This document shows, one piece after another, positions 7,548 to 61,633 of a stretch of DNA of 64,000 nucleotides. The stretch spans positions 7,051,501-7,115,500 of the forward strand of contig NZ_CP029190.1 in assembly GCF_008642295.1 (NCBI RefSeq), given 5' to 3'. Position numbers and translations under genes: made by a program. Below the pieces are notes generated by a model. It saw only the letters and a list, made by a program, of their open reading frames with translations, was not told where the DNA came from and searched no databases. The number at the start of each line of letters is the position of its first letter. Position 1 is the stretch's first letter. Source of the DNA: Streptomyces venezuelae (GTDB lineage: Bacteria > Actinomycetota > Actinomycetes > Streptomycetales > Streptomycetaceae).

Positions 7548-7626
7548 GGGGCGCCGCTGCCCTGCCCTCCCGCGCCCGGGACATCATGGGGCCGAGGCTA
7601 CGCGCGGACGGAACGGGGCACGCGGA

Positions 7627-8136
7627 ATGAAGGCGACCGAGGTACTGGCCGACGCGTTCGGGCGCATCCGGGAGGCCGTCCACGACGTGGTCGAGAACCT
7701 CTCCGAGGAGGAACTCCACGCCCGTACCGGCCCGGAGGCCAATTCGATCGCCTGGCTGGTGTGGCACCTGACCCGGATCCAGGACGACCACATCGCCGAC
7801 GCCGCCGGCGAGGAGCAGCTGTGGCAGGCCGCGGGCTGGCGGGAGCGCTTCGGCCTGCCCTTCCCCGCAGCCGCGACCGGATACGGACACACCCCGCAGG
7901 AGGCCGCCTCGGTCCGCGTGGACTCCGGCGACATCCTGCTGGGCTACCTGGACGCGGTGCACGACCGTACGACGGCCTTCGTCCGCGGGCTCGCCGCCGC
8001 CGACCTCGACCGGGTGGTCGACGAGCGCTGGGACCCGCCGGTCACCCTGGGCGTCCGGCTCGTCAGCGTGGTGGCCGACGACCTTCAGCACGCCGGGCAG
8101 GCGGCCTTCGTCCGGGGCGTGCTCCGGAGCCGCTGA
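7627..8136 (+). CDS. DinB-superfamily (DUF664-like) protein
   Basis: This 169-residue all-helical protein has the DinB four-helix-bundle pattern. The metal-binding histidines appear as WHLTRIQDDHIAD in the second helix and DDLQHAGQAAFVRG near the end, matching the H...HxxxH arrangement of the family. Actinobacterial relatives include mycothiol-dependent transferases and maleylpyruvate isomerases, so a thiol-dependent detoxification role is plausible but unproven. The upstream Shine-Dalgarno is weak (ACGCGGA next to the ATG). It is convergent with the arylamine N-acetyltransferase gene. Confidence 0.75.
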   Translation: MKATEVLADAFGRIREAVHDVVENLSEEELHARTGPEANSIAWLVWHLTRIQDDHIADAAGEEQLWQAAGWRERFGLPFPAAATGYGHTPQEAASVRVDSGDILLGYLDAVHDRTTAFVRGLAAADLDRVVDERWDPPVTLGVRLVSVVADDLQHAGQAAFVRGVLRSR

Positions 8137-8168
8137 CCCGGCGCACGCCCACGGCCCGCGGCCCGCGG

Positions 8169-9020
8169 TCAGTCGGAGTCGGTTCCGACCGGCAGCCGGG
8201 CGATCACCCCGGCGTCCAGCTCGATGCCGAACTCCTCGTCCAGCACCCGCTGGAGGTCCGTCACCTCGAGCTTCTGCTCGCTGCGGGTGCCGTCCGGCAG
8301 GACCTGGATCCAGTTCAGCCCGTCGATCAGCTGGTGCCGGTCGGCACTGAAGTGCTGGGCGAACAGGCGCTTGACGAAGGGGGACCGGGGGTGCGAGCCC
8401 ACGAAATGGCTGCCGACCACATAGTCGATGGGGTACTGCGGAAGCAGGGTGAACGTGTGCCGGTCGAGCCAGCCGTCCGCCCCGTACTGGTGTAGCCACC
8501 ACTCGTCGACACCGAGGACCCTCGCCCGCCGCTCCATCCGGAACCGCCAGCCCGCGAAATCCGCCTCGGCCCCGTCGGCGAGCTCGACCGGCCCCAGCGG
8601 GCCACCGCCGAATCCGACGTCGCACAGCCAGGTCCGCTCGTCGTCGGACGGCTGCACGGCCAGCAGTGCATGGGTGGCCGGCAGGATCTTCTCGTTCCCG
8701 AGGGTGACCCGCCCGATCAGCGCGGTGAACCGGAAGCCCAGCCTCTCCAGAGCCGCCGCGAACAGGGTCACGTGCTCGTAGCAGTAGCCGCCGCGCCGCG
8801 ACCGTACCAGCTTGTCCTGGACGGACTCCAGGTCCAGGGGGAGCGGGATCCCGAGGACGGCATTCACGTTCTCGAACGGAATCGAGGTCACATGCGCCCG
8901 GTGCAGGGCCCGCAGCACCTCCAGCGTCGGTGTCCGCTGCCCGGTGTGTCCCAGCCGGCCGAGGTAGGCGTCGAGGTCCAGCGCATCGCCGTCCCAGTGT
9001 CCCCCGTGGTCAGTCTGCAT
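8169..9020 (-). CDS. arylamine N-acetyltransferase
   Basis: This 283-residue protein contains the complete NAT catalytic triad in conserved surroundings: C80 in RRGGYCYEH, H117 in PATHALL and D134 in CDVGFGG. Length and the order of the three domains (helical bundle, beta barrel, alpha/beta lid) fit the prokaryotic NAT family. It should transfer acetyl from acetyl-CoA to arylamines or hydrazines by a ping-pong mechanism. In actinomycetes, relatives also close or amidate ansamycin chains, but no such cluster is nearby. The ATG at 9020 has AAGGA 8 bases upstream. Confidence 0.93.
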   Translation of the reverse strand: MQTDHGGHWDGDALDLDAYLGRLGHTGQRTPTLEVLRALHRAHVTSIPFENVNAVLGIPLPLDLESVQDKLVRSRRGGYCYEHVTLFAAALERLGFRFTALIGRVTLGNEKILPATHALLAVQPSDDERTWLCDVGFGGGPLGPVELADGAEADFAGWRFRMERRARVLGVDEWWLHQYGADGWLDRHTFTLLPQYPIDYVVGSHFVGSHPRSPFVKRLFAQHFSADRHQLIDGLNWIQVLPDGTRSEQKLEVTDLQRVLDEEFGIELDAGVIARLPVGTDSD

Positions 9021-9100
9021 CCTCGTCGTCCTTCACTGTGATGGATCGTCACTTTCCGTCGACCCTAGGCGACCGGGCCCCGGTGCGGGTGTTGGGTTGC

Positions 9101-10297
9101 TCACGTGCCCGCAGGGCCGGGGCCGTTCAGGCGGCGGTCGAGGTAGCGCTGGAACTGCCACAGCGGACGCTCCAGGTGGGAGAAGCGGCCCCCGGACGGA
9201 GCCGGGTCGGTGGCCAGGCCGCGCTGGACACCGCGGACGGCCACCAGGTCCTCGCCCTGGATCAGCTCCAGGGAGCTGCGCGATTCCTCGGCCCAGGCCT
9301 CGAAACCGGGCCGTTCACGGGCGGCGGCCGTGGTGAGGACGGTGGCGACGGCATCATGCCGGTCCGGTCCGGTGGGCAGCCAGCGCAGCACCGTCACACT
9401 GTCCGGCACCACGGCCATGACCAGGTGCGGGAACACCCCCGCGATGAGCATGCCCGCCTCCCCGGCTGCCCCGGCCGTGCCGGGAATCAGCGCGGCCGGG
9501 TCGGGCGGGGACTCCGCCCCCGCGGCGACCGCACCCGCCGCGAACGGGGTGTACATGGTGAACCAGCGGCCGTCGCACGTGTCGATCACGGTGTCCCTGC
9601 CCGGCAGAAGCGGCTCCAGGGTGGCGGCATGGGTGCCCATGTGGTGGTAGTTCTCCGAGCCGTTCTCCACCGCCACCTTCCAGTTCGCGGGTACGCCGTT
9701 CCAGCGCAGGGTGTACGCGGTCTGCAGCGCGCCGAGCCCGTAGGGCGCGAGGCGCTCGTCGAGCCCCGACAGCTGCGGAGCGAGCGGTTCGGCGTCCGGA
9801 TCGAGGTTCACCATCAGAAAGCCGTTCCAGACCTCCACCCGGTGGCCGGGCAGCCGGCACGCGGCCCGGTCGAACTCCACCCGGTGCATCAGCGGCGACC
9901 CGGCGAGCCGGCCGGCGAACTCGCCGTTCAGGCGGTACGTCCAGGTGTGGTACGGGCAGGTCAGCCGCTTCAGGGTGCCCTGTGCCGGGGTGGTCTCCGG
10001 CGGCAGCACGTCCATGAAGCGGTGCCGGCAGACCCGGGACAGGGCATGGGGGGTGCCGTCCTCGTCGCGGGTCAGGACCAGCGGGACTCCGAGGTCGTCG
10101 ACCCGGAGATACGAGCCGGGACCGGGCAGGTCCTCGGCCCGCCCCACGCAGATCCAGTCGCGCCGGAAGATGCGTTCCTGTTCACGGGCGTGGAACTCGG
10201 GCGCGGTGTACGCCCGGGCCGGCAGCGTTTCGCCCCGCTCCAGCGGGAGCCCGGCAAGCCGGTGCAGTTCTCGCAGCAGGTGGTTCAGGTCCGTCAT
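9101..10297 (-). CDS. Rieske non-heme iron oxygenase, alpha subunit
   Basis: This 398-residue protein has an N-terminal Rieske [2Fe-2S] domain with CRH (C90, H92) and CPYH (C114, H117) ligands. A C-terminal catalytic domain holds the mononuclear iron site ENYHHMGTH (H218 and H223, with acidic and Asn residues nearby). This is the ring-hydroxylating/demethylating alpha-subunit architecture. No beta subunit, ferredoxin or reductase gene is adjacent, so it probably works as an alpha-only (type IA-like) oxygenase with electron donors encoded elsewhere. The substrate is unknown. GGAAGG precedes the ATG. It lies 80 bases downstream of the NAT start on the same strand, so the two could share a transcript. 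Confidence 0.9.
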   Translation of the reverse strand: MTDLNHLLRELHRLAGLPLERGETLPARAYTAPEFHAREQERIFRRDWICVGRAEDLPGPGSYLRVDDLGVPLVLTRDEDGTPHALSRVCRHRFMDVLPPETTPAQGTLKRLTCPYHTWTYRLNGEFAGRLAGSPLMHRVEFDRAACRLPGHRVEVWNGFLMVNLDPDAEPLAPQLSGLDERLAPYGLGALQTAYTLRWNGVPANWKVAVENGSENYHHMGTHAATLEPLLPGRDTVIDTCDGRWFTMYTPFAAGAVAAGAESPPDPAALIPGTAGAAGEAGMLIAGVFPHLVMAVVPDSVTVLRWLPTGPDRHDAVATVLTTAAARERPGFEAWAEESRSSLELIQGEDLVAVRGVQRGLATDPAPSGGRFSHLERPLWQFQRYLDRRLNGPGPAGT

Positions 10298-10451: not shown

Positions 10452-11495
10452 TCACCCGGCGGAGACCAGTGGCGGGTTGAGGCGGGCGAAGCCCTCCTGG
10501 CGCTCGTACGGGAAGTACGGGTACGGCGCCGGGCGGTGGCTCGCCGCATCCAGCCGGGCGGTCTGCTCGGCGGTCAGTGACCATCCGACGGCCCCGAGGT
10601 TCTGGCGCAGCTGCTCCTCGTTGCGCGCACCGATGATCACGGAGGACACCGTCGGCCGGTGCAGCAGCCAGTTGAGGGCGATCTGGGGGACGGTCCGGCC
10701 GGTTTCCGCGGCCACCTCATCGAGCGCGTCGACCACGTCGTAGAGGTACCCGTCCTCCACCGGGGGCCCGTAGTCCGCGGTCTGGTGCAGCCGGCTCCCG
10801 GGCGGCAGCGGGCGGCCCCGGCGCACCTTGCCGGTCAGCCGGCCCCACCCCAGGGGGCTCCAGACCAGGGCGCCGACACCCTGGTCGTGCCCGAGCGGCA
10901 TCAGCTCCCACTCGTAGTCGCGCCCGATGAGGGAGTAGTACACCTGGTGGGCCACATAGCGCGGATAGCCGTGCCGGTCGGCTGCGGAGAGGGATTTCAT
11001 CAGCTGCCAGCCGGCGAAGTTGGAGACCCCGACATGACGGATCTTGCCGTCCCGTACGAGCCGGTCGAGTGCGGACAGCACCTCTTCGACCGGGGTGGCC
11101 GCATCGAAGGCGTGCAGCTGGAAGAGGTCGATGCGGTCGGTGCCGAGCCGGCGCAGGGCGTCCTCGGTCGCGCGGACCAGCCGCGCCCCGGAGGTGCCCG
11201 CCGCGTCGGGGCCGTCGCCCATCGGCAGCCCGGCCTTCGTCGACAGCAGCACCCGGTCGCGCCGCCCCCTCACCGCCTCGCCCAGCACGGTCTCCGAGGC
11301 TCCGGCGGAGTACACGTCCGCCGTGTCGAACAGGGTGATGCCGGCATCCAGGCTGATGTCCACCAGCCGGCGGGCCTCCTTGGCGCCGGTGTCGCCCCAC
11401 GCGCCGAAGAGCGGCCCGCTGCCGCCGAAGGTGCCGGCCCCGAAGGAGAGCGCGGGAACCATGAGACCGGACGTACCGAGCTGCCTGTACTCCAT
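10452..11495 (-). CDS. aldo/keto reductase
   Basis: This 347-residue TIM-barrel oxidoreductase has the AKR signatures: FDTADVYSAGASE (Asp and catalytic Tyr), STKAG (catalytic Lys), LFQLHAFD (catalytic His region) and the NADPH-binding end SSVIIGARNEEQLRQNL. It matches the AKR group near YajO/Tas or IolS and should reduce aldehydes or ketones with NADPH. A GGAGG Shine-Dalgarno precedes the ATG at 11495. The gene is divergent from a TetR regulator 90 bases away, with a repeated element between them, so repression by that TetR is likely. Confidence 0.92.
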   Translation of the reverse strand: MEYRQLGTSGLMVPALSFGAGTFGGSGPLFGAWGDTGAKEARRLVDISLDAGITLFDTADVYSAGASETVLGEAVRGRRDRVLLSTKAGLPMGDGPDAAGTSGARLVRATEDALRRLGTDRIDLFQLHAFDAATPVEEVLSALDRLVRDGKIRHVGVSNFAGWQLMKSLSAADRHGYPRYVAHQVYYSLIGRDYEWELMPLGHDQGVGALVWSPLGWGRLTGKVRRGRPLPPGSRLHQTADYGPPVEDGYLYDVVDALDEVAAETGRTVPQIALNWLLHRPTVSSVIIGARNEEQLRQNLGAVGWSLTAEQTARLDAASHRPAPYPYFPYERQEGFARLNPPLVSAG

Positions 11496-11510
11496 GACGA
11501 ACCTCCACTG

Positions 11511-11573
11511 TTAATGGAACTTTCGACCCCTTAAGCTGCTCTCACGGTAGCAGTGATCGACGATTAATGGAAC
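11511..11573. promoter_or_regulatory. 10-bp direct repeat between aldo/keto reductase and TetR genes
   Basis: TTAATGGAAC occurs twice on the plus strand, at 11511-11520 and 11564-11573, in an AT-richer stretch between divergent starts. The copies sit next to the two Shine-Dalgarno sequences, so a protein bound there would block both genes. This is a candidate operator of the TetR protein. Confidence 0.45.
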
Positions 11574-11585
11574 AGGAGTCCCGTT

Positions 11586-12233
11586 ATGGTGGCTGGAGAG
11601 GCAGAACCGGGGACCGTGCGGCCCGGCGGACGGACGGCGCGGGTCCGGGCGGCGGTCCTGCAGGCGGCCGGAGACCTGCTCGCCGAATCCGGCTTCGGCC
11701 GGCTCGACCTCGCCGAGGTCGCCCGCCGCGCCGACGTGGGCAAGACCACCGTCTACCGCCGCTGGGGAACACCCGCCGGCCTGGTCGCCGACCTGCTGGC
11801 GGACATGGCCGAACAGTCCCTGCCGCGCACGGAGACGGGCTCCCTCGACGGGGACCTCCGCGCCAATGCCGACCTGGTGTGCCGCACGCTCGCGGACCCC
11901 CGCCAGGGTGCGTTGTTCGCGGCGGTGATCGCCGCGGCCACCGCCGACCCCGGAACGGCCGAGGCCCTGCACCGCTTCTACGCGATCCGGGTGGCGGAGT
12001 GGGCGCCCTGTGTCCGGCAGGCCGTCGACCGGGGCGAACTCCCGGCCGGCACCGACCCGGAGGAGGTGATCCGCGCGGTGTCCGCCCCCCTCTACTACCG
12101 GCTGCTGACCACCGCGGCGCCCCTGGACGAAGCTGCCGCCGCACAGGCGGCGCAGGCGGCGGCGGCAGCCGCCCGGGCCGGCGCCTTCACCCGCGGAACC
12201 CCCGAATCCGCCGGAAGTAATTGCTCCATGTGA
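11586..12233 (+). CDS. TetR-family transcriptional regulator
   Basis: This 215-residue protein carries a TetR N-terminal helix-turn-helix at about residues 18-65 (AAGDLLAESGFGRLDLAEVARRADVGKTTVYRRW) and a variable helical ligand-binding domain. The C-terminal region resembles TetR_C_11-type regulators of Streptomyces and is Ala-rich near the end. The ATG at 11586 follows AGGAG. Divergent orientation to the aldo/keto reductase suggests local repression and auto-repression; the ligand may be a substrate of that enzyme. Confidence 0.88.
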   Translation: MVAGEAEPGTVRPGGRTARVRAAVLQAAGDLLAESGFGRLDLAEVARRADVGKTTVYRRWGTPAGLVADLLADMAEQSLPRTETGSLDGDLRANADLVCRTLADPRQGALFAAVIAAATADPGTAEALHRFYAIRVAEWAPCVRQAVDRGELPAGTDPEEVIRAVSAPLYYRLLTTAAPLDEAAAAQAAQAAAAAARAGAFTRGTPESAGSNCSM

Positions 12234-12328
12234 CGATTTGACAACATTGGGTCACCGTCAGGGGCGGGCGGCTCCTCCGCCGGGCAGAACCGGATGGGGG
12301 AGACACCCCTGGTGGAGGGAGGGCCCGC

Positions 12329-13033
12329 GTGCTCACCGACCTACTCGCCCGGATCACCGGCCGGCCGAAAGCCGCAACCGCACCCGTGGCATTCACCGCA
12401 GACTTCGGCTCCACCACCCAGTGGGTGGCCGGCCGGTCCTGGGCCTATCCGAACGGAGGCCCCGTCAATCCCAGGGACGACAAACTCGACCACCTGGTGG
12501 CCGATCCCGCGTACAGCCGCAGCGGCGTCTTCCGCGCCACCCGCCGTACCGACGGCAACTGGAACACCGGTCTGCTCACCACCGAGGGCAGCGAAGAGGA
12601 ATTCCTGATGCAGGCCGGCGACCTGCTGGAGACCCGGGTGCGGCTGCCCGAGCAGACCGGCGCCTGGCCCGCCATCTGGACCTGGCGCGACGGCGATCAG
12701 GAGATCGACGTCTTCGAGTACCACCCGGACAACCCCGACCTGCTGGAACTCTCCAACCACGTCCACGGCGGCTCCCACCTCTCCTACCGCAACGCCGCCA
12801 TCGTCCGCCCGGGCGCCTGGGTGGACCTGGCGGTGGAATGCGGCGCCCGGTCGGTGGTGTGGTGGGTGAACGGCACCAAGGTCTACGCGGACCGGCGCGG
12901 GGTCGGCCGGCGCTGGCGGGCCGCCCTCATCGTCAACCTGTCGGTCTGCGCGGGCCGCTACCACCCGCCGCCGCCCCCGGAGATCACGGAGATGTCCTAC
13001 GAGGTGGCCTACCTGAGGGTGCGCCGGCCCTGA
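12329..13033 (+). CDS. GH16-like beta-glucanase/concanavalin-fold protein
   Basis: This 234-residue protein shows the GH16 active-site pattern EIDVFE in DGDQEIDVFEYHPD, preceded by WPAIWTW as in family 16 laminarinases/lichenases. Later strands (WVDLAVECGARSVVWWVNGTKV) fit the jelly-roll fold. No signal peptide is visible: the N-terminus MLTDLLARITGRP is short and charged. The enzyme would therefore be cytosolic, exported by another route, or a degenerate relative. The GTG start at 12329 has GGAGGGAGGG directly upstream. Hydrolysis of beta-glucan is inferred only from the motif. Confidence 0.7.
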   Translation: MLTDLLARITGRPKAATAPVAFTADFGSTTQWVAGRSWAYPNGGPVNPRDDKLDHLVADPAYSRSGVFRATRRTDGNWNTGLLTTEGSEEEFLMQAGDLLETRVRLPEQTGAWPAIWTWRDGDQEIDVFEYHPDNPDLLELSNHVHGGSHLSYRNAAIVRPGAWVDLAVECGARSVVWWVNGTKVYADRRGVGRRWRAALIVNLSVCAGRYHPPPPPEITEMSYEVAYLRVRRP

Positions 13034-52174: not shown

Positions 52175-52666
52175 TCAGGAGCGGCTGTGGAAGCGGAGCT
52201 GCAGGGCACGGACCTCGTCGGCCAGCGCGGGCACCGGCCCGTCGACCGGGAGGCCGGGGACGATCTCCCGAATGGGCAGGGTACGCACCGGGGGCGCCGG
52301 CACACCCAGTTCGGCCAGCCAGCCGCCGAGCTGGGCGGAGGACGCCGCGTACACGATACGGCCGAGCCCGACCCAGCCGTGGGCCGCGGCGCACATCGGG
52401 CAGTGCTCGTTGGAGGTGTAGACGGTGGCGGCGGCCCGCTCCTCGGGGGTCAGGCGGGTGGCGGCCCAACGGGCCAGCTCGAACTCCGGATGCCGGGTGC
52501 GGTCTCCGCCGGACACCCGGTTGTGGTCCTCGGCGAGGACCGTCCCGTCGGCGGCGACCAGGACGGAACCGAAGGGCTCGTCGCCGGCCTCCAGGGCGTC
52601 CGCCGCCAGCTCCAGACAGCGGCGCAGGTGCCGCAGGTCGGCATCGGTCAGGCGCTGGTCCGTCAT
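52175..52666 (-). CDS. nucleoside deaminase (cytidine/guanine deaminase-like)
   Basis: This 163-residue deaminase has the zinc motif HPEFE (H59, E61) and EHCPMC (C89, C92). It matches the tRNA-adenosine/guanine/cytosine deaminase group. Its physiological base is unknown. It is next to a nucleoside-type kinase on the same strand, separated by 23 bases, so the two probably act in a salvage pathway. Confidence 0.88.
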   Translation of the reverse strand: MTDQRLTDADLRHLRRCLELAADALEAGDEPFGSVLVAADGTVLAEDHNRVSGGDRTRHPEFELARWAATRLTPEERAAATVYTSNEHCPMCAAAHGWVGLGRIVYAASSAQLGGWLAELGVPAPPVRTLPIREIVPGLPVDGPVPALADEVRALQLRFHSRS

Positions 52667-52726: not shown

Positions 52727-53308
52727 TCAGCGGCCGGGTCCGGACTCCTCCGGGCCGAGGACCCGCACGATACGGGCCGGGTTGCCGACGGCCAGAACCC
52801 CGGCCGGGAGATCCCTGACGACCACGGATCCGGCGCCGACCACCGTGTTCGCGCCGATGGTCACCCCCGGGCAGACGATCACTCCGCCGCCCAGCCAGAC
52901 GTTGTCACCGATGGTGACGGGCAGCCCCCGCTCCCAGCCGGCCCGCCGGAGATCGGGGTCCAGGGCGTGCTCGGGTGCCAGCAGCTGAACGTTCGGGCCG
53001 ATCTGCACGTCCGCGCCGACGGTGATCGGGGCGGTGTCGAGGAACACCGCCCCGAAGTTGACGAACGTACCGGCGCCGATACGGATGTGGTGGCCGAAGT
53101 CGCAGTGGAAGGGGGGCCGGATTCGCACCCCGTCGCCGACCTCGCCCAACAGCTCCCGCAGGATCGCCTCGCGGTCCTCGGGCGGGAGCGGGCCGGGCGC
53201 GTTGTACCGTGCGCAGAGCTCTGCGCGGCGCGCGCTGTCGGCCGCGAGCTGCGGGTCGTCCGGCAGGTACCAGTCGCCGGCCGCCATGCGCTGGTAATTC
53301 TCCCCCAC
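52727..53308 (-). CDS. maltose O-acetyltransferase-type hexapeptide acetyltransferase
   Basis: This 193-residue left-handed beta-helix protein has an N-terminal helical cap (MAAGDWYLPDDPQLAADSARRAELCARYN) and hexapeptide repeats (IRIGAGTFVNFGAVFLDTAPITVGADVQIGPNVQLLAPEHALDP, then VTIGDNVWLGGGVIVCPGVTIGANTVVGAGSVV). It transfers acetyl from acetyl-CoA to sugars. The GTG at 53308 was chosen as GGGAGG is spaced 6 bases before it; an earlier GTG directly abuts the Shine-Dalgarno. Confidence 0.9.
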   Translation of the reverse strand: MGENYQRMAAGDWYLPDDPQLAADSARRAELCARYNAPGPLPPEDREAILRELLGEVGDGVRIRPPFHCDFGHHIRIGAGTFVNFGAVFLDTAPITVGADVQIGPNVQLLAPEHALDPDLRRAGWERGLPVTIGDNVWLGGGVIVCPGVTIGANTVVGAGSVVVRDLPAGVLAVGNPARIVRVLGPEESGPGR

Positions 53309-53410
53309 GGACACCCTCCCTTGACCGGTACATCGAAGCCGACGCCAACGCTGACGCACCGGCCCCCGGCCGTCAAGGACGGCGGGGCGCGCACCGGGGA
53401 AACCTCCTGC

Positions 53411-53916: not shown

Positions 53917-54930
53917 CTAGCGGAGCGCGTACAGGTCAGTGATCTCGGCTCCGCGGAGGCGTTTGGCGTGGATGGCCTTCATCCCCGCGTGCAGGGCGGT
54001 CGTGCCCTCCCGGTACGCGGCTTCGATGGGCAGGTAGTACGTGAGGTTGAAGTAGGCGAACGGGGCCGAGCAGGCGGGGTCCGTGCCGACGGCGCGCAGC
54101 CAGGTGGTGCCGGCGAAATGGTAGGAGAGGCTGAAGGCGGCCATGCGCCGGCCGTCGTATGCGGCGGTCACCCGGGCCTGCTCGCCCATCGCCTCGGCCT
54201 GCCGGCCCAGCAGGCGGGTCATCAGGTCGGCGTTGTCGCCGGTGTGGCCGTGCGCCGACTGGAGTACCGCCAGCAGCCGCCCGGCATCCCGGTGGCACTC
54301 GCCGAGCGGCAGGTGGCGGATGCGCAGCCCGGCGGCCTGGAACGCCGCGCGTTCGCGGCGCACCACCACCCGGCGCTTGGACGGCAGAGAGTCGAGGTAG
54401 TCGTCGAAGCCGGTGCCGGGCAGCGGGATGGTCGCGTCGGCCTCCAGCCGCTGTGGCACCGCCCCGTCGTACACCGCGCCGAGCTGCCCCGCGGCGGCCT
54501 CGGTCAGGTACGGCCACCAGTGCGTGGTGCCGTGCCGCTCGGCGTGCTCGCGCGCGCAGTCCCGCAGCAGGGTCAGACAGGCGGTACGCCGCTCCGCCGA
54601 CAGGGCCGGGTCGGTCAACGGCGCGTTGTGGTAGCCGCGGCGGGCGCCGGCGATCACGCGGGGTCGTGGTGGCCCGGACAGGTCCAGGTGGTCCGGGTCG
54701 TAGAAGGCGTTGGGCTCGCTGTGGACGAGGTAGAGCGGAGCGGCGGCGAGCAGTGCGCCGTCCCCGTCTCCGTCCCCGTCGCGGACGAGGGCGTAGGAGG
54801 CGGTCGCGGTCGGGTCGGACTCTTCGCCGGACAGCCAGCGGTGGGAGAGGTACAGGCCGGCGGAACGGGCCAGCCGGTCCCAGTCGTCCGCCGGTATGTC
54901 GCGGAGGGTGGTGGCCATGTGGGCTTTCAT
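53917..54930 (-). CDS. FemAB-like GNAT-fold acyl/aminoacyltransferase
   Basis: This 337-residue protein has the double-GNAT layout of FemAB-like enzymes: SLPSKRRVVVRRERAAFQAAGLRIRHLPLGE in the middle, then AAYDGRRMAAFSLSYHFAGTTWLRAVG and FAYFNLTYYLPIEAAYREGTTALHAGMKAIHAKRLRG at the end. Related enzymes move amino acids from aminoacyl-tRNA, or acyl groups from CoA, onto amines. Its start overlaps the MFS stop by 4 bases (ATGA), so it is the last member of the leftward operon with two ATP-grasp ligases. It might extend or cap the ligase product. Confidence 0.75.
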   Translation of the reverse strand: MKAHMATTLRDIPADDWDRLARSAGLYLSHRWLSGEESDPTATASYALVRDGDGDGDGALLAAAPLYLVHSEPNAFYDPDHLDLSGPPRPRVIAGARRGYHNAPLTDPALSAERRTACLTLLRDCAREHAERHGTTHWWPYLTEAAAGQLGAVYDGAVPQRLEADATIPLPGTGFDDYLDSLPSKRRVVVRRERAAFQAAGLRIRHLPLGECHRDAGRLLAVLQSAHGHTGDNADLMTRLLGRQAEAMGEQARVTAAYDGRRMAAFSLSYHFAGTTWLRAVGTDPACSAPFAYFNLTYYLPIEAAYREGTTALHAGMKAIHAKRLRGAEITDLYALR

Positions 54931-56285
54931 CGTGGTGTCGGGCCCTCCGTGCGAACGGTGTCGGTGTCGGTGTCGGTGTCGGCGTTGGTGTCGGTGTCGG
55001 CAGGCGTGCCGCGGGGGACCGGCCGCAGGGCGGGGACGGCCAGCAGCGCCAGCAGGCAGGCCGCCCCCTGAACCGCCCACGGCACGAGGCCCCCGGCGGC
55101 CAGGAGGGTGGTGAACAGCACGGGCGCCGCGATGTTCCCGGTTGCCCAGGAGAGCTGATAGAGGCTCTGTTTGCCGCCGCGGGCGGCACCCGGAGTGAGG
55201 GTGACGGAGAGTTCGTTCAGGGCCGGGGAGCAGAAGATCTCGGCCAGGCTGAACAGCACCATCGCCAGCACCAGCGAGGGCCAGGTGGGAAGCCCGCTCC
55301 AGGGCAGTGCCGGGGCGGCGAAGGCCAGCATGGCGGCGGTGAGGAGTCCGTAGCCGAGGGCGATGGTGTGCCGTGGCTGTGCGGGGGCGAGGTGGGCGGT
55401 CAGCGGTGTGGTCAGGGTGGAGACCAGCACCGTGTTCAGGATGAGCAGGAAGCTCGCCGCCCATGCGGCCAGGCCCAGGGTGGTGGTGGCGTACAGGGCG
55501 ATGAGTACGGCCAGCATCGACTGGGACAGGACGAAGGGGAGGGCGCAGACGACCAGGAGCAGATAGCGGCGGTTGTTGTCGTCACCGCGCTCCGCCCGTG
55601 GCGCGGAGGGCGGTGGCGCGGGCGGCGGCGCCGTCACGGGTACGCGGGCGAAGCAGGCCGCCGCGATCAGGTACAGCGGTGCGGCGGCCAGCAGCAGACC
55701 GGTCAGGGCCCCGGTCCCGTACAGCGCGAGTGCACCCGCAGCCAGCGCCGCGCCCGCGCCGATGCCGATGTTGCGCAGGCTCCCGGTGAACGCGAACCAG
55801 GCGCGGATCTCACCGGCCGGCGTGGCCTGCGTGATCAGTGAACGCTGCGCCGTGTAGTACGCGTTCACCCCGGACTGCACCAGGAGGTAGGCGCAGGCGA
55901 TCTGCCACGGACGGTGGGCGAGGAGGAAGGCCAGGAACCCGGCCGCGGTGACCACGTTCGCCACGACGGTCAGCGGTCGCGGCCCCCGCCGGTCCATGAC
56001 ACGGCCGGCGAGGAAGACCACCGGCAGCGCGGCAAGCTGACCGGCCGTCACGGCGGCCCCGACGGTGGCGGGCGTCAGACCGCGCACGGTCGTGAAGTAC
56101 AGCAGCCCGAGGGGCAGCAGCATGCCGCTGCCCACCGAGTCGATGAGGTTGCCGGTCACGAACCGGCCGTGCCCGCGGACGGCCGGCAGCCCCAGCACTC
56201 GCACCAGCCGGCCCCGCCGAGTGCGACCGGGCACGGGCACGGAGGTGGCGGGGTCGGCGGGGTCGGCGGAGGTATCAGGCGTCAC
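54927..56285 (-). CDS. MFS transporter of ATP-grasp operon
   Basis: This 452-residue protein has about twelve membrane segments in the MFS arrangement and the intracellular loop pattern GRVMDRRGPRPL of motif A. It probably exports the product of the cluster. The C-terminus is a low-complexity tail of alternating Asp and Thr encoded by hexamer repeats at 54957-55000. The GTG start at 56285 lies inside the end of the ATP-grasp gene (11-base overlap); a later start is possible. It overlaps the FemAB-like gene by 4 bases. Confidence 0.85.
   Translation of the reverse strand: MTPDTSADPADPATSVPVPGRTRRGRLVRVLGLPAVRGHGRFVTGNLIDSVGSGMLLPLGLLYFTTVRGLTPATVGAAVTAGQLAALPVVFLAGRVMDRRGPRPLTVVANVVTAAGFLAFLLAHRPWQIACAYLLVQSGVNAYYTAQRSLITQATPAGEIRAWFAFTGSLRNIGIGAGAALAAGALALYGTGALTGLLLAAAPLYLIAAACFARVPVTAPPPAPPPSAPRAERGDDNNRRYLLLVVCALPFVLSQSMLAVLIALYATTTLGLAAWAASFLLILNTVLVSTLTTPLTAHLAPAQPRHTIALGYGLLTAAMLAFAAPALPWSGLPTWPSLVLAMVLFSLAEIFCSPALNELSVTLTPGAARGGKQSLYQLSWATGNIAAPVLFTTLLAAGGLVPWAVQGAACLLALLAVPALRPVPRGTPADTDTNADTDTDTDTVRTEGPTPR
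54957..55000. repeat. hexamer repeat (GTCGGT) at MFS gene end
   Basis: About seven 6-bp units (TCGGTG in register, two of them imperfect) encode the alternating Asp-Thr tail of the transporter. Slippage would alter only tail length. Confidence 0.85.
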
Positions 56286-57585
56286 GGGTGGCGGCACCGG
56301 CGGCGGGGGTGAGCAGGGCCCGGATCTTGTCCAGCACTTCCTGCCGGGGAAAACCGGTGCCCGCGTGCAGGTCCTCCAGGGCCTTGACCGTCCGCTGCTC
56401 CTCGCCGTCGGCGAGGGTGAAGACGACGATCTCGCCGTGACCGGCGCCGTCGATGACCAGTTCGTGCGCGGTGACGAGGTCCAGCCGGTCCGCCAGCTCC
56501 TCGCGGGCACCCGGCGGCAGCCCTTCGGGGGAGAGGAATTCCACGGCCCAGCCGGTGCGGTGGACCTCCCCGGGGGCGTACCGGCCGAGGGCCATGTCGG
56601 CCAGCGCGGTGAAGGTGTTGCTGCCGGAAGCGGCACAGGAGAGCGTGGTCGCGCCGCCGATGCGGGGGTTGATCTCCAGGACCGCGTACCGGCCGCCGCT
56701 GTAGATCATGTCCACGTTCACGGAACCGCGTACGCCCAGCGCCTCGCAGAGGGTGACCAGCCGGGCGGCGACGGGCCGGAACGCCGCGTCGGCCTCCGGC
56801 CGCGGCCCGCACCAGCGCAGCCCGGCGAAGGTGAACACCGGTTCGGGGCCGGCGGTGCCGGTCCAGCACACCGGAAGGACCCGGTAGGCGCCGGGTTCGC
56901 CGACGATGTCCACGGAGCACAGGTCCCCGCTGATGCACTCCTCGATGACGGCCGACACGGGCGGCGGGTCGAGGAGGTAGGCGTCCAGCGCGGCGGCGTC
57001 GGGCAGCGCCCGGATGCCCATGCTGGTGGAGTCCCACAGCGGCTTGGACAGCAGCGGGTAGCCGATCCGGGCCGCCCCGGCCCGCAGCGCATCGCCGTAG
57101 GCGGGAACCGGCAGGCCGCGGCCGGCCAGCAGGTCGGAGTCGGCCCGGATCCCGCGCGGCACGTCCAGGCCCGACCGGATGAGCAGCTGTTTGGTCTCCC
57201 ACTTGTCGCTCAGCAGTGCGGTGGCCGCGAGCGGGGTCATCACCGTCGGTACGCCCTCGGCCTCGAGCAGCTCCTTCACGGTCGCGTCGCGCAGCGCGTT
57301 CTCGCACGGCAGCGAGATGGAGATGGCGGCGTCGGCTCCCCATCGGGTGACCAGCGCGGCCAGTTCGCCGGGGGTGACGGCCGGATCGACGGGCTGCCGG
57401 CCGCCGGGGAAGTCCTCCTCCCCGGCCTCACCGTGGGTGTGGAACAGCCGGGTCTCGATGCCCTGGCCGGCCAGTTCGCGGACGGTGCGCTGGATGTAGG
57501 GGTCGGCGCGCTGGATGTCGACGGACCTCAGGAACGCGATCTTCTGCACGGGCTTCCGCTCTGCTCTCTGCTCTGTTCCGCTCAC
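56275..57585 (-). CDS. ATP-grasp ligase 1
   Basis: This 436-residue ATP-grasp protein has the pre-grasp segment (KIAFLRSVDIQRADPYIQRTVRELAGQGIETRLFHT), the nucleotide-binding K128/K132 (SDKWETK) and K181 (YPLLSKPLWD), and the Mg site VDMIY...LEINPRIGG (D292, E304, N306). The family joins a carboxylate, via acyl phosphate, to an amine, amino acid or thiol. It begins 7 bases after the stop of the second ligase, so they are co-translated. Substrates are unknown. The GTG at 57585 was used; a GTG near residue 13 is possible. Confidence 0.87.
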   Translation of the reverse strand: MSGTEQRAERKPVQKIAFLRSVDIQRADPYIQRTVRELAGQGIETRLFHTHGEAGEEDFPGGRQPVDPAVTPGELAALVTRWGADAAISISLPCENALRDATVKELLEAEGVPTVMTPLAATALLSDKWETKQLLIRSGLDVPRGIRADSDLLAGRGLPVPAYGDALRAGAARIGYPLLSKPLWDSTSMGIRALPDAAALDAYLLDPPPVSAVIEECISGDLCSVDIVGEPGAYRVLPVCWTGTAGPEPVFTFAGLRWCGPRPEADAAFRPVAARLVTLCEALGVRGSVNVDMIYSGGRYAVLEINPRIGGATTLSCAASGSNTFTALADMALGRYAPGEVHRTGWAVEFLSPEGLPPGAREELADRLDLVTAHELVIDGAGHGEIVVFTLADGEEQRTVKALEDLHAGTGFPRQEVLDKIRALLTPAAGAATRDA

Positions 57586-57592
57586 GGCTGGT

Positions 57593-58852
57593 TCACTTCA
57601 CTCTCAGACTGGTGCCGGCGATCGCCCGGTCGGCCAGGGCACGGGCGCGCGCGGGGGAGTCGGCCACGGCCACCACATGGCCGATGCGGCCGGAGCTGTC
57701 GGCCGGCTCGGGGACGGTGTCACCGGGCCGCAGCCCGATCTCGCTGTGGGTGCCGGGAACCTCCGGCACGCGTACGTGGTCCAGTACGCCGCCCCGCCCG
57801 GGCAGCAGGAAGCGGATGGCCGCCGCCCCCTCCCGTACCGCCCCGGTCTCGGGCAGCCGGCCGGTCACGGCCTGGAGGTAGGCCACCGCCTCGCTGATTC
57901 CGGTTGCGGCCTCGACGATCTCGCAGATGTTGTCACCGGGCAGCCGGGCCCCCGTCTCGATCACCACCGGGGTGTCCGATCCGGGCGGGATCTTCACCTC
58001 CGTGTGCGCGATGCCGTTGCGGACCCCGACGGCGAGCGCCGCGCGGGCCGCGGCGTGCTGCACCGCGCGGGTCAGATCCGGCGGCAGTCCGGCCGGGCAG
58101 GAGTGCCCGGTCTCCACCCGGTACCGCCCGGCGGTGGTGTCCTTGGCGACCACCGGCAGCGCGTACGGGACGCCGTCCAGCACCACGGTCTCGGCCGAGT
58201 ACTCGGGGCCCGGCACATACGCCTGGAGCAGCACCCGCGGGTCCAGCGCCAGTCCGTGCGGCATGGCCCGGGTGAACCGGCGGGCCGCCGCGACGGCCTC
58301 GTCCAGGTCCTCGGGTCCGGCCACCACGCTGACCCCCCAGGAGCCGCCCTGCTCGGCCGGCTTGACCACCAGCGGCCAGCCCAGCCCCACCTCGGAGGCC
58401 GCCCGGCGCGCCTGCGCGGCATCCTCGGCCACCGCGTCGAGCGGGACCGGGATCCCGGCCGCACGGAACGCCCCGGCCATCGCGATCTTGTTGCGGGCGG
58501 CATGGGCGAGGGCCGGGTCGTTGCCCGGCAGGCCGAGCCGCGCCGCCAGCGCCGCGACCAGCGGGGTGAACAGTTCCCAGCAGGCTGCGACCGCGCCGAT
58601 CCGGTGCTCCCGGCAATAGGACTCCATGTCGTCCAGGGCCCGGTCCGGGTCGGTCAGATCCGTGAAGCAGACCCCGGCCAACTCCCCGGTCGGCCACGGG
58701 GCGTACCTTCCGTGGATCTCCCGGTGCGTGGCGCCGTACAGCCGCAGCCCGAGCCGTTCGGCGGCGGCAGCCAGGAACGGCCCGGCGTTCCCCATCGGTT
58801 CGACCACCAGCACACCGGTGCTGCCGGCGCCCGGTACCTCGCTCATCGTCAC
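57593..58852 (-). CDS. ATP-grasp ligase 2, L-amino acid ligase-like
   Basis: This 419-residue ATP-grasp protein is different from its neighbour. It has VLVVEPMGNAGPFLAAAAERLGLRLYG at the start, K164 in WPLVVKPAEQGGSWGVSVV, VPGPEYSAETVVLDG and HTEVKIPPGSDTPVVIETGARLPGDN (E285, E299, R303). The layout follows dipeptide-forming L-amino acid ligases (BacD/DdaF-like) and carnosine-synthase-type ligases. It is the first gene of the leftward operon, divergent from the radical SAM gene. GTG 58852 and ATG 58846 are possible starts; neither has a clear Shine-Dalgarno. Confidence 0.87.
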   Translation of the reverse strand: MTMSEVPGAGSTGVLVVEPMGNAGPFLAAAAERLGLRLYGATHREIHGRYAPWPTGELAGVCFTDLTDPDRALDDMESYCREHRIGAVAACWELFTPLVAALAARLGLPGNDPALAHAARNKIAMAGAFRAAGIPVPLDAVAEDAAQARRAASEVGLGWPLVVKPAEQGGSWGVSVVAGPEDLDEAVAAARRFTRAMPHGLALDPRVLLQAYVPGPEYSAETVVLDGVPYALPVVAKDTTAGRYRVETGHSCPAGLPPDLTRAVQHAAARAALAVGVRNGIAHTEVKIPPGSDTPVVIETGARLPGDNICEIVEAATGISEAVAYLQAVTGRLPETGAVREGAAAIRFLLPGRGGVLDHVRVPEVPGTHSEIGLRPGDTVPEPADSSGRIGHVVAVADSPARARALADRAIAGTSLRVK

Positions 58853-58946
58853 GAGGCCAGTGGACCCGCCGGGGCGGTGGAGCGTCTATCGGGTTGATCT
58901 CCGAAAACAACTCACCCAGAACACACCCCCCTTGGAGGACCGTCCA

Positions 58947-59012
58947 ACGCAACATGCTTTCAGCCAGCCCGAGTTGGTGCGCACGGCCGATAGCGTCAAC
59001 AAAATGTTGCGT
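58947..59012. promoter_or_regulatory. 9-bp inverted repeat in shared divergent promoter region
   Basis: ACGCAACAT (58947-58955) and ATGTTGCGT (59004-59012) are perfect arms, 48 bp apart (start-to-start 57 bp, five to six helical turns). They lie in the 217-bp region between the divergent starts of ATP-grasp ligase 2 and the radical SAM gene. An inner CAACA-AAA-TGTTG abuts the second arm. It is a candidate operator for joint control of both operons. Confidence 0.45.
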
Positions 59013-59069
59013 GCTCGAATGCCTGCGCAAGGTAACCAGGCGCGGCAGACCCGACATGAGGGATCCATC

Positions 59070-60509
59070 GTGAGCAACCTGCACAACGAGCTGGCCCAGT
59101 TCATCGAGCAGGGCGTCATCCCGCCCTACCAGTACTCCTACCCGCCCCGTTCGACCTACCGCCCCCTCGACGAGGGAGCCTGGGACGCCCGCCAGGTCTG
59201 GGCCCGCGACCTGGAGAACCACCAGACACCCGAACTCAACCTCTACCTGCACGTGCCCTTCTGTCGCTACAAGTGCGGCTTCTGCAACCTCTACACGGTC
59301 ATCTCCACCGACCAGGAGCTGTACGACGCCTACACTGACGCCCTCTGTACCCAGATCCGGGACCACGCCGAGATCATCCAGGCGCGCCGGCTGCGCACCG
59401 TCTACATCGGCGGCGGCACCCCCTCCCTCCTCGGAACCCGCCACTTCGAGCAGATCTTCGACACCCTCGGCTCCGTCTACCCCAACTGGCGCTCCACCGT
59501 CGAGGAGGTCGCAGTCGAAGCCACTCCGGACTCGATCGTCGCGGACCCCGAAGGCTTCGGCCGCCTCCTCGAACTGGGCCTGACCCGCGCCAACATCGGC
59601 ATCCAGTCCCTGGTGCCCAAGGAGATCCGGGAGGCCGGACGCGGTCAGGCGGGCGAGGACACCATCCGCCGCGCGGTCGCGATCGCCCACGAGCTGGGGC
59701 TGCCCGACCTGTCCACCGACCTGATCATGGGATTCGCCGGACAGACACCCGAATCCTGGCGCCACTCGGTGGACGAACTGGCCAAGCTGGCCCCGACCAC
59801 CATCTCCACCTACTTCCTGACGGTGCGTCCGGACGCCTGGTTCTCCCGCACGGGTGCCTATCAGTACATGTGGAAGCCCGAGCTGTACGAGCGCTACGAC
59901 TACGCCCGCGAGGTGTTCACCGCCCACGGCTACGTCCAGGAGGGCTCAGTCCGCTACAAGAAGCCCGGCCGCGGCGGCTACGTACAGAAGGTCCTCACCT
60001 TCCACGGCGTCCCGCTGCTCGGACTCGGCGTCGGCGCCCGCTCGTACACCACGGTCCTGGACTACATGACCGGAAGCGTCAAACCGTCCCTCACGGAGGT
60101 GGCGCAGTACATCGAGCAGGCGAAGGCGCACAGCCTCCGCCCGACCACGGGTTTCGCCCTCACCCCCGAGGAGATCGTCCGCAAGCGGCTGGTCCTGGAC
60201 GCCTTCGACCTGGACCTGGCCGAGCTGGACCGGTTCGGCCTCGAAGCGATCGCCGGCGAGGTCGACGCGGTGCTGGCGGCGGCGGAGTCCAACGGCCTGG
60301 TGCACCGGGTCGGACCGCGCCGGATCCAGCTCACCCCCAAGGGGTTCAAGTACCGCGACATCCTGTCCTGGATGTTCTACTCCGGCCGGGTCAAGGACCT
60401 GGACCGCGAGTACTACGAGGGGCTGCACGAGGCCAACGCGCGGGCCCGCCGGAACATGGGAACTCCGGTGCGCATCACCGGAATCACCGGTGTGCGGGAG
60501 ACCGTGTGA
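59070..60509 (+). CDS. HemW/STM4012-like radical SAM enzyme
   Basis: This 479-residue protein has the radical SAM cluster CRYKCGFC (C65, C69, C72) inside LYLHVPFCRYKCGFCNLYT, the GGGTPSLLG SAM motif and the HemN-type C-terminal domain ending LTPKGFKYRDILSWMFY. The N-terminal YSYPPRSTYRPLD element recalls STM4012-type proteins, an uncharacterised family associated with an ATP-grasp protein (STM4014). HemN-like enzymes include class C methylases and cyclopropanases in natural-product pathways. The GTG at 59070 follows GAGGGA. Its stop overlaps the DUF1152 start by 4 bases. Confidence 0.85.
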   Translation: MSNLHNELAQFIEQGVIPPYQYSYPPRSTYRPLDEGAWDARQVWARDLENHQTPELNLYLHVPFCRYKCGFCNLYTVISTDQELYDAYTDALCTQIRDHAEIIQARRLRTVYIGGGTPSLLGTRHFEQIFDTLGSVYPNWRSTVEEVAVEATPDSIVADPEGFGRLLELGLTRANIGIQSLVPKEIREAGRGQAGEDTIRRAVAIAHELGLPDLSTDLIMGFAGQTPESWRHSVDELAKLAPTTISTYFLTVRPDAWFSRTGAYQYMWKPELYERYDYAREVFTAHGYVQEGSVRYKKPGRGGYVQKVLTFHGVPLLGLGVGARSYTTVLDYMTGSVKPSLTEVAQYIEQAKAHSLRPTTGFALTPEEIVRKRLVLDAFDLDLAELDRFGLEAIAGEVDAVLAAAESNGLVHRVGPRRIQLTPKGFKYRDILSWMFYSGRVKDLDREYYEGLHEANARARRNMGTPVRITGITGVRETV

Positions 60510-61633
60510 GCGACCTGTTCATCGCGGCGGGCGGCGGCGGCGACCCGATCGGAACCGCCATCACCGCGAGCGCCATGAGCGGCGCGTTCGCGACGGCCAC
60601 CGCCGGGCCCGTCTTACCCGTGGTGGCCACCTACTCCTGGGAACGCCCGGAGGTCGACCCCACCCCCGGCCCCCTCGGCGTACGGGACTTCACCGGACTC
60701 CTCCACCGCCCCGAGGGCCGGGTGCTGACTCCCGCCACACGGGCCGTCACCCCGGCCGGCTCCACCCTGCCCCGGCTCGCCGCGGATCTGCCGGTACGGC
60801 TGGTGCTGCTCGACCCGTACGAGGGGCTCGCCGGTCTGGCCGGGCAGATCCGGCGGCTGGCCGCGGCCGGCTCCGGGCGGGTGCGGATCGTCGACGTCGG
60901 AGGCGACATCCTCACCCACGGGGACGAGAAGACCCTCTGCAGCCCGCTGGTGGACGCGCTGGTGCTGGCCGCCTGCACCCTCGCCGGGGTCGATGCCACC
61001 GTGCACATCGCCGGTCCCGGGACCGACGGGGAGATCCCCCAGGACGTCCTGCTCGACCGGCTGGCCAGGCTGGCCGGGATGGCCGCGATGGCCGGGGTGC
61101 CCGGTCCGGCGGCCGGTCCGGCGGGCCACCCGTTCGCCCCAGACGCCCGGCACGCAGCCACCGTGGACCGGGCACTGGCCTGGCACCCCTCGGAAGCCTC
61201 GGCGCTGTTCGCCGCGGCCGTGTGCGGAATACGCGGCACCGTACGGACCGTCGGGCGCGCGATACCGCTCACCGACGCGTCCGCCTCCGTCCACGGCACC
61301 GGCCTGGCAGCCGCCGTGGCGGAAAACCCCGTGGCCCGGGGCCTGCTGGAGCTGCTGCCCCGTACCGTCGACGAAGCGGCCGATGTCTCGGCGCGGCTCA
61401 CCGGCATCCACGAAATCGCCCGCGAACGCCACCCGGTTCCCGCCCCCACCCCGCCGGCCGTACCGTTCCCGGTCGACGCGGCCCGGGCGCGGGCACAGGT
61501 ACGGGCGGAGGCCGGCGGCACGAGCCACGCCACCTACCGGTTCGCCGCCCGGGCGCTGCGGCTGCCCTGGCAACGCATCCCCGAGCTGCGCACCCTGTTC
61601 GGCGACAAGAGCCCCCTCCTCACCCTGCACTGA
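60506..61633 (+). CDS. DUF1152-family protein
   Basis: This 375-residue protein starts LFIAAGGGGDPIGTAITASAMSG, a glycine-rich Rossmann-like loop, and continues VVATYSWERPEVDPTPGPLGVRDFTGLL, RVRIVDVGGDILTHGDEKTLCSPLVDALVLAACT and WHPSEASALFAAAVCGIRGTV. This is the DUF1152 pattern of archaeal and actinobacterial proteins of unknown function, probably a nucleotide- or sugar-phosphate-like binding enzyme. A GTGA overlap joins it to the radical SAM gene, so the two very likely act together. Confidence 0.77.
   Translation: MSDLFIAAGGGGDPIGTAITASAMSGAFATATAGPVLPVVATYSWERPEVDPTPGPLGVRDFTGLLHRPEGRVLTPATRAVTPAGSTLPRLAADLPVRLVLLDPYEGLAGLAGQIRRLAAAGSGRVRIVDVGGDILTHGDEKTLCSPLVDALVLAACTLAGVDATVHIAGPGTDGEIPQDVLLDRLARLAGMAAMAGVPGPAAGPAGHPFAPDARHAATVDRALAWHPSEASALFAAAVCGIRGTVRTVGRAIPLTDASASVHGTGLAAAVAENPVARGLLELLPRTVDEAADVSARLTGIHEIARERHPVPAPTPPAVPFPVDAARARAQVRAEAGGTSHATYRFAARALRLPWQRIPELRTLFGDKSPLLTLH

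Follow-up and report, generated by a model that had tools for sequence, protein, structure and literature searches.

Pathways to peptidyl nucleosides of the nikkomycin and polyoxin type include an ATP-grasp ligase, and NosN, C10P and Jaw5 are class C radical S-adenosylmethionine (SAM) methyltransferases. The nikkomycin- and polyoxin-type routes also involve a radical SAM step together with 2-oxoglutarate (2OG) oxygenases, as one report describes them (PMC8724604). In the phosphonoalamide pathways of Streptomyces, two ATP-grasp ligases work in turn: dipeptides are formed by one of them, and the special residue is added by the other (PMC11867202). Here we describe a cassette of six genes, A to F, that combines two ATP-grasp ligases with a HemN-like radical SAM enzyme and a DUF1152 protein. 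It lies in a stretch of 64,000 nucleotides from Streptomyces venezuelae (contig NZ_CP029190.1, positions 7,051,501 to 7,115,500), which as a whole is called the window and in which positions are numbered from 1. We consider it probable, at roughly 0.6, that the cassette is a self-contained Streptomyces route to a small exported amide metabolite, di- or tripeptide-like, that is built without a nonribosomal peptide synthetase (NRPS).

The window occupies 7.05-7.12 Mb of a genome that consists of one contig of 7.53 Mb. In it the cassette spans 53917-61633 (7.7 kb), and its six open reading frames are arranged as two divergent operons, with A to D on the reverse strand and E and F on the forward strand. 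Gene A (53917-54930) encodes a FemAB-like or GNAT-type transferase of 337 amino acids (PF04339, 62.1 bits; PF13480, 28.2 bits), B (54927-56285) a major facilitator superfamily (MFS) transporter of 452 amino acids (PF07690, 90.1 bits), and C (56275-57585) the first ATP-grasp ligase, of 436 amino acids, placed in that superfamily by PF02655 (43.3 bits, cut-off 23.2). The second ATP-grasp ligase, D (57593-58846, 417 amino acids), is of the L-amino acid ligase (LAL) type and matches PF13535 (56.6 bits, cut-off 27), PF18603 LAL_C2 (48.5 bits, cut-off 29.4) and PF18130 ATPgrasp_N (47.2 bits). Across the divergent intergenic region (58847-59069) lie E (59070-60509), a HemN-like radical SAM enzyme of 479 amino acids (PF04055, 75.6 bits, cut-off 29.5), and F (60506-61633), a DUF1152 protein of 375 amino acids (PF06626, 190.8 bits, cut-off 27). 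The GTG start of E at 59070 is consistent with the starts of its relatives. A and B overlap by 4 bases, B and C by 11, and E and F by 4, with a gap of 7 bases between C and D. A sequence-only reading of this DNA had described two tightly coupled divergent operons with these six genes, and its coordinates, gaps and overlaps agree with ours, as do its six family assignments, each of which is backed by a Pfam match. The shared region of 217 bp that it gave corresponds to an upstream GTG start of D (58852), and the distance is 223 bases when counted from the ATG.

The six genes recur together. Searches with F (E-value threshold 1e-20) gave matches in 35 of 150 genomes of the same genus, at 37 places. 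Among 20 of these places examined with wide flanks, ten have the complete set of six, ordered as in the window, with F 49-64% identical; at three, the DUF1152 gene and a distantly related radical SAM gene are divergently arranged, without ligases, and seven have a DUF1152 gene without the other five. Searches with E through 392 same-genus genomes found it at 70% identity or more in 20, the window genome counted. All six genes are present in 18 of these, and the loci of the remaining two run into contig ends (A is absent from G439, and in G465 nothing but C, E and one additional gene is seen). The two operons thus co-occur in other genomes, a point on which the sequence-only reading had staked its proposal. 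When named loci and a class-level search are added, five or more of the genes occur in 23 distinct loci other than the window; L055, L056 and L058 are repeats of L037, L142 and L143, and the fragments L054 and L059/L146 were excluded from the count. Because 18 of these 23 loci keep the identical gene order and three more, although rearranged, keep all six genes, the grouping is not a product of chance. The other two are L141, which is without A at a contig end, and L057, which is without F. Identity to the window, taken over best segments, is 70-93% for E, 43-75% for F and 44-82% for B. With A at 48-81% in the 25 listed loci where it is present, E is the most conserved member of the cassette.

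The rearranged loci (L144, L145 and L147, and in part the fragment L146) have D placed on the operon of E, after F. That all six genes stay together despite this change of operon is the strongest sign that they serve a single function. These loci also gain three genes, encoding a PF10014 2OG-Fe dioxygenase (191.5 bits), a second MFS protein (40.4 bits) and a protein of 448 amino acids. The PF10014 family is known for acting on free amino acids; the sole NCBIfam match of the dioxygenase is to isoleucine dioxygenase HilB, where it scores 23.5 bits and the cut-off is 350. The 448-residue protein has no match in Pfam or NCBIfam, and its sequence, read by eye, is possibly ligase-like. A dioxygenase and a candidate ligase added to the set would fit a small amide or peptide product.

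Both ligases have directly assayable specificity, and their relationships differ. D passes as a member of the ATP-grasp L-amino acid ligase type, having an ATP-grasp domain and a LAL C-terminal domain, and its best hit in the PDB is the L-amino acid ligase BL00235 (3vot, E-value 2.4e-21), followed by BacD. C contains an LEINPRIGG stretch and is nearest to D-Ala-D-Ala ligases (its best PDB hits, E-value 1.1e-7) and to an archaeal Ddl-like model, and is distant from these and from PylC. Assignment of C as a D-alanine--D-alanine ligase was rejected, with scores of 39.2 against 243 bits for PRK01372 and 25 against 245.65 bits for TIGR01205, and its match to NF053643 (57.3 bits) is far under the cut-off of 500. 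In A, an HGH block and a C-terminal LHxGM block are conserved in seven sequences; we propose that A is a capping acyl- or aminoacyl-transferase and that B is an exporter, both as predictions from their families. A PADLOC scan of C to F for defence systems gave no matches.

For F, the structural model has a confident Rossmann-like fold with a weak resemblance to PIG-L deacetylase, and F is accordingly predicted to be a Rossmann-like enzyme. Among the weaker structural matches of F are Rossmann-like proteins that bind nucleotides. PIG-L zinc N-deacetylases carry an N-terminal AHPDD motif. We rejected F as a member of this group in spite of the weak likeness in fold, since AAGGGGD replaces AHPDD, with each column kept in 75-76 of 76 sequences; identity to PIG-L- or MshB-type deacetylases is 10-15%. 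When F was used for a profile search against PDB sequences, only two hits resulted, at E-values of 1.7-1.8, and a literature search found no work on DUF1152, within a poor coverage of subscription journals. Elsewhere, a more distant DUF1152 group (L042-L047 and L050; tblastn identity to F 36-40%) has GntR genes as neighbours. In most of these loci FtsK and RepSA-type genes are neighbours too; they belong to pSAM2-like integrative elements, of which the DUF1152 genes could be cargo. In three loci (L041, 99-2846; L048, 7582-10345; L049, 7051-9745) an STM4012-like radical SAM gene is divergent from a DUF1152 gene without ligases, and in L048 and L049 an EamA transporter lies near this pair.

E is a member of the radical SAM superfamily, with a CX3CX2C motif whose cysteines (C65, C69 and C72) are invariant in 14 sequences. 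Its profile matches HemN (1olt, E-value 2.9e-43, aligned over profile positions 16-424) and NocN (9p2u, E-value 2e-29), and based on these two similarities E is perhaps a two-SAM (class C) enzyme. Two narrower assignments were rejected. As an STM4012 family radical SAM protein, E reaches 260.5 bits against a cut-off of 380 for NF006067, its best NCBIfam match, and as the HemN coproporphyrinogen III oxidase it reaches 113.9 bits against 324.95 for TIGR00538; it is also below the HemW cut-off. In a tree of 40 rows, the clade of E (34 rows) is split from the STM4012-type enzymes by long, fully supported branches. The E proteins of the cassettes and rearranged cassettes form one clade of 12 rows (98/100), which includes two proteins of unplaced gene context. 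Proteins from Streptosporangium saharense and from soil fall near this clade, and some of the outer branches are long or unresolved.

Searches with E were extended beyond the genus of the window. A draw of 296 genomes from the phylum (E-value threshold 1e-60) yielded two matches and one of 394 genomes from the class (1e-70) yielded five, all of them in that genus. Further draws gave 0 of 19, 1 of 219 in the order of Thermomonospora, and 0 of 201 in the phylum of a Chloroflexota metagenome-assembled genome (MAG); in the phylum of Myxococcus 3 of 193 genomes matched, two of the three at about 31% identity. No relative was confirmed on viral contigs, and plasmid and phage records hold only relatives less than 60% identical, with the 19 matched plasmid records at 28.6-34.5%. 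A protein search for relatives of E matched 2008 proteins; among the matches listed, P0223 (named as Candidatus Levybacteria) and P0229 are E-type radical SAM proteins that a long additional N-terminal part brings to about 650 residues.

Four E-type loci outside the cassette, a small sample, place the enzyme in a different company. In Streptosporangium saharense (L153, E relative 63% identical) a thymidylate-kinase-like gene, an SDR gene and a GuaA gene are divergent from E, and a PurA-like gene follows E after 11 bases. The GuaA protein is above its cut-off at 727 bits, and the organism has a second GuaA, about 50% identical; the extra guanosine monophosphate synthase of this locus (7580-9202) might be a dedicated enzyme or one that confers resistance through target duplication. 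In S. cylindrosporus (L139, 48%) the gene is a second E copy besides the cassette of that genome (L138), and a deoxynucleoside-monophosphate-kinase-like gene and a PurA-like gene that overlaps the start of E precede it, with PNP-domain and HD nucleotidase-like genes following on the other strand. The PNP-domain protein (10827-12758), beside the HD nucleotidase-like gene, has a long N-terminal region and matches PADLOC effector models at 56.2 and 52.5 bits. A Clostridia MAG (L062/L152; 46% across about 186 residues and 39% across 298) has PfkB-family kinase and HAD genes upstream and a GuaA gene just downstream, and the draft contains no other match to GuaA; on its second contig, the radical SAM match has two stop codons. 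In a Myxococcaceae MAG (L157, 57%) the neighbours are a HAD phosphatase, a heme-oxygenase-like protein, two TadA-like deaminases and a cyclase.

The PurA-like proteins of L139 (8264-9397) and L153 (10946-12127) are 48% identical to each other, short and below the PurA cut-offs, and they keep WGDEGKG. The aspartate loop of adenylosuccinate synthetase is a TTGR-type motif, and a search of both proteins for such a loop found none; they possibly represent a repurposed branch of the adenylosuccinate synthetase family. PurA or GuaA occurs nearby in three of the four E-type loci versus one of 71 other HemN- or STM4012-type loci (Fisher p 2.3e-4; two of three without the Clostridia locus, p 0.003), in a comparison framed after the loci had been seen and with queries drawn from the tested loci themselves, so that the positives were scored by annotation and only the controls were blind. 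The 71 controls are 80 loci less eight cassette loci and L062, and several of their flanks are shorter than 10 kb; the one control match is to PurA (L085), and a partial GuaA match of 23% in L073 was left uncounted. In L158 and L159, whose relatives at 31% were not counted as E-type, an inosine monophosphate dehydrogenase gene lies a few genes away. Since two well-resolved loci have genes for purine-nucleotide enzymes next to an E relative, an ingredient of the cassette pathway may be nucleotide-derived. This context was not foreseen in the sequence-only reading and may change the identity of the building block.

In the pathway that we favor, that of a small exported amide, E and F would make or tailor a non-standard building block, while D, as an L-amino acid ligase, would join amino acids. 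C would then join the building block to the product of D, or the reverse, by analogy with PnaC and PnaB of the phosphonoalamides; A would add an acyl or aminoacyl cap to the product, and B would export it. Several observations weigh against this proposal. F is missing in the otherwise complete locus L057 of Streptomyces sp. SID486, and a search at an E-value of 1e-10 found no DUF1152 match in that draft genome, so F may be dispensable or replaceable. Moreover, a sequence search of the PDB gave no credible match for A, C is at best a distant relative of any characterised ligase, and no cassette gene is an obvious candidate for the synthesis of an unusual amino acid. A route to a small amide or peptide-like product was also what the sequence-only reading had proposed. 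The genes do form one conserved unit of six, and the extra genes of the rearranged loci fit such a product; the product itself, the activities and the substrates continue to be predictions from sequence.

A product of the peptidyl-nucleoside type, for which E would act on a purine nucleotide, nucleoside or analogue, F would process it, and C, D and A would attach amino acids, seems to us a possible, if rather unlikely, alternative. The kinase-like, GuaA, PurA-like, PNP and HD genes around the E relatives of L153 and L139 speak for it, as do the post hoc enrichment of PurA and GuaA and the nucleotide-binding proteins among the weaker structural matches of F, and formycin biosynthesis offers a precedent for dedicated Pur enzymes (PMC8724604). 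However, 13 purine-context queries found no homologue in the fetched cassette loci, other nucleoside genes not having been sought, and the window offers only a deaminase 1.2 kb from A; the cassette therefore does not have the nucleoside-formation genes of a peptidyl-nucleoside cluster as far as these queries extend, although its precursor could stem from primary metabolism. The individual loci are also open to other explanations, since the Clostridia GuaA may be a housekeeping enzyme in a genome whose other radical SAM match is broken by stop codons, the extra GuaA of L153 could provide self-resistance, the PNP protein of L139 also resembles a defence effector, and the link in L157 consists of only the two TadA-like deaminases and a HAD phosphatase. 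The amide and nucleotide readings overlap. In a more specific version, which is more doubtful still, E would represent a separate HemN-like clade acting on a purine-type nucleotide, accompanied elsewhere by repurposed PurA paralogues with an altered aspartate loop, and its combination in Streptomyces with DUF1152, two ATP-grasp ligases and a FemAB-like transferase would yield a new class of amino-acid-decorated, nucleotide-derived antimetabolites.

Modification of peptidoglycan or of a cell-surface metabolite is improbable. The FemAB-like Pfam match of A and the D-Ala-D-Ala ligases among the best hits of C speak for such a role, but C is far below the Ddl cut-offs and adjoins a ligase of the amino acid type, and the patchy distribution (20 of 392 genomes) and the exporter better match a secondary metabolite. 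Least credible of all is that two independent operons lie side by side by chance. DUF1152 genes do occur without the other five in seven fetched loci, and STM4012-like/DUF1152 pairs without ligases in three, yet the whole set is together in 18 of the 18 genomes whose locus is uncut by a contig end, even where D switches operon, and the data already contradict this explanation.

The region between D and E has features that are consistent with joint control of the two operons. Inverted blocks CTATCGGG (58886-58893) and CCGATAG (58987-58993) are largely conserved in an alignment of 11 loci, which for the most part keeps CTATCGG ... CCGATAG together with GAAAACAACTC and TTGGTGC stretches. A palindrome, CAACAAAATGTTG at 58997-59009, is common to the closest loci. 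It, or CAACAAATTGTTG, is found 71-74 bases before E in 7 of the 20 regions scanned, and in all seven of these loci E is at least 85% identical to that of the window. From these blocks and the palindrome we infer a promoter or operator role for the region, and co-regulation of both operons is plausible. A reading of the blocks as a sigma-70 promoter was dropped because TTGGTG and CGATAG lie only about 8 bases apart.

None of the six genes that flank the cassette in the window has a match at any other cassette locus, and outside the window genome only the two deaminases of L157 match one of them. Most flank genes of L031-L040 are likewise unshared, and a few trios or pairs share one (beside A in L036-L038; near F in L031-L033). 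We take flank genes common to few loci for a mark of shared descent of close loci, and the conserved core for the six genes. The flanks of the window include a deaminase-like gene (52175-52666) about 1.2 kb from A, 37% identical over 100 residues to the L157 deaminase, and a gene (52727-53359) for a hexapeptide protein that resembles maltose O-acetyltransferase (167.5 bits, below cut-off), both unmatched at other cassettes.

The cassette is thus a recurrent unit of 7.7 kb, with no NRPS or polyketide synthase gene among its six, and is small enough to express whole. It gives DUF1152 a recurrent set of partner genes and includes a member of a HemN-like clade that is linked to purine-type enzymes in other bacteria. 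In the sequence-only reading, no characterised cluster was known to have this combination, and a literature search, drawing on titles and abstract openings with poor coverage of subscription journals and so constituting weak evidence of novelty, also gave no pathway that matches the six-gene set. ATP-grasp amide clusters are already known; what appears to be undescribed, within the literature covered, is their combination with a HemN-like enzyme and DUF1152.

Comparison with individual systems gives the same mixture of likeness and difference. The best NCBIfam match of E is to STM4012 of the STM4011-STM4015 system, of which one locus, on a Deinococcus plasmid, was inspected; yet E is below the cut-off, has its own long and fully supported branch, and has different partner genes. 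Similarly, E resembles HemN and class C methyltransferases such as NocN by profile but is below the cut-offs of both HemN and HemW. The resemblance to nikkomycin- and polyoxin-type pathways comes from the relatives of E only, and no gene for nucleoside formation was detected among the six. D has the architecture of L-amino acid ligases, with BL00235 and BacD of bacilysin as its best solved relatives, although it scores 51.8 bits against a BacD equivalog cut-off of 850. Finally, the phosphonoalamide pathway differs in that the term radical SAM is absent from the main text of its report and in that the six genes of the cassette include no phosphonate enzyme. Nevertheless, the cassette, like that pathway with PnaB and PnaC, has two distinct ATP-grasp ligases, and the Pna ligases form small peptides without an NRPS (PMC11867202).

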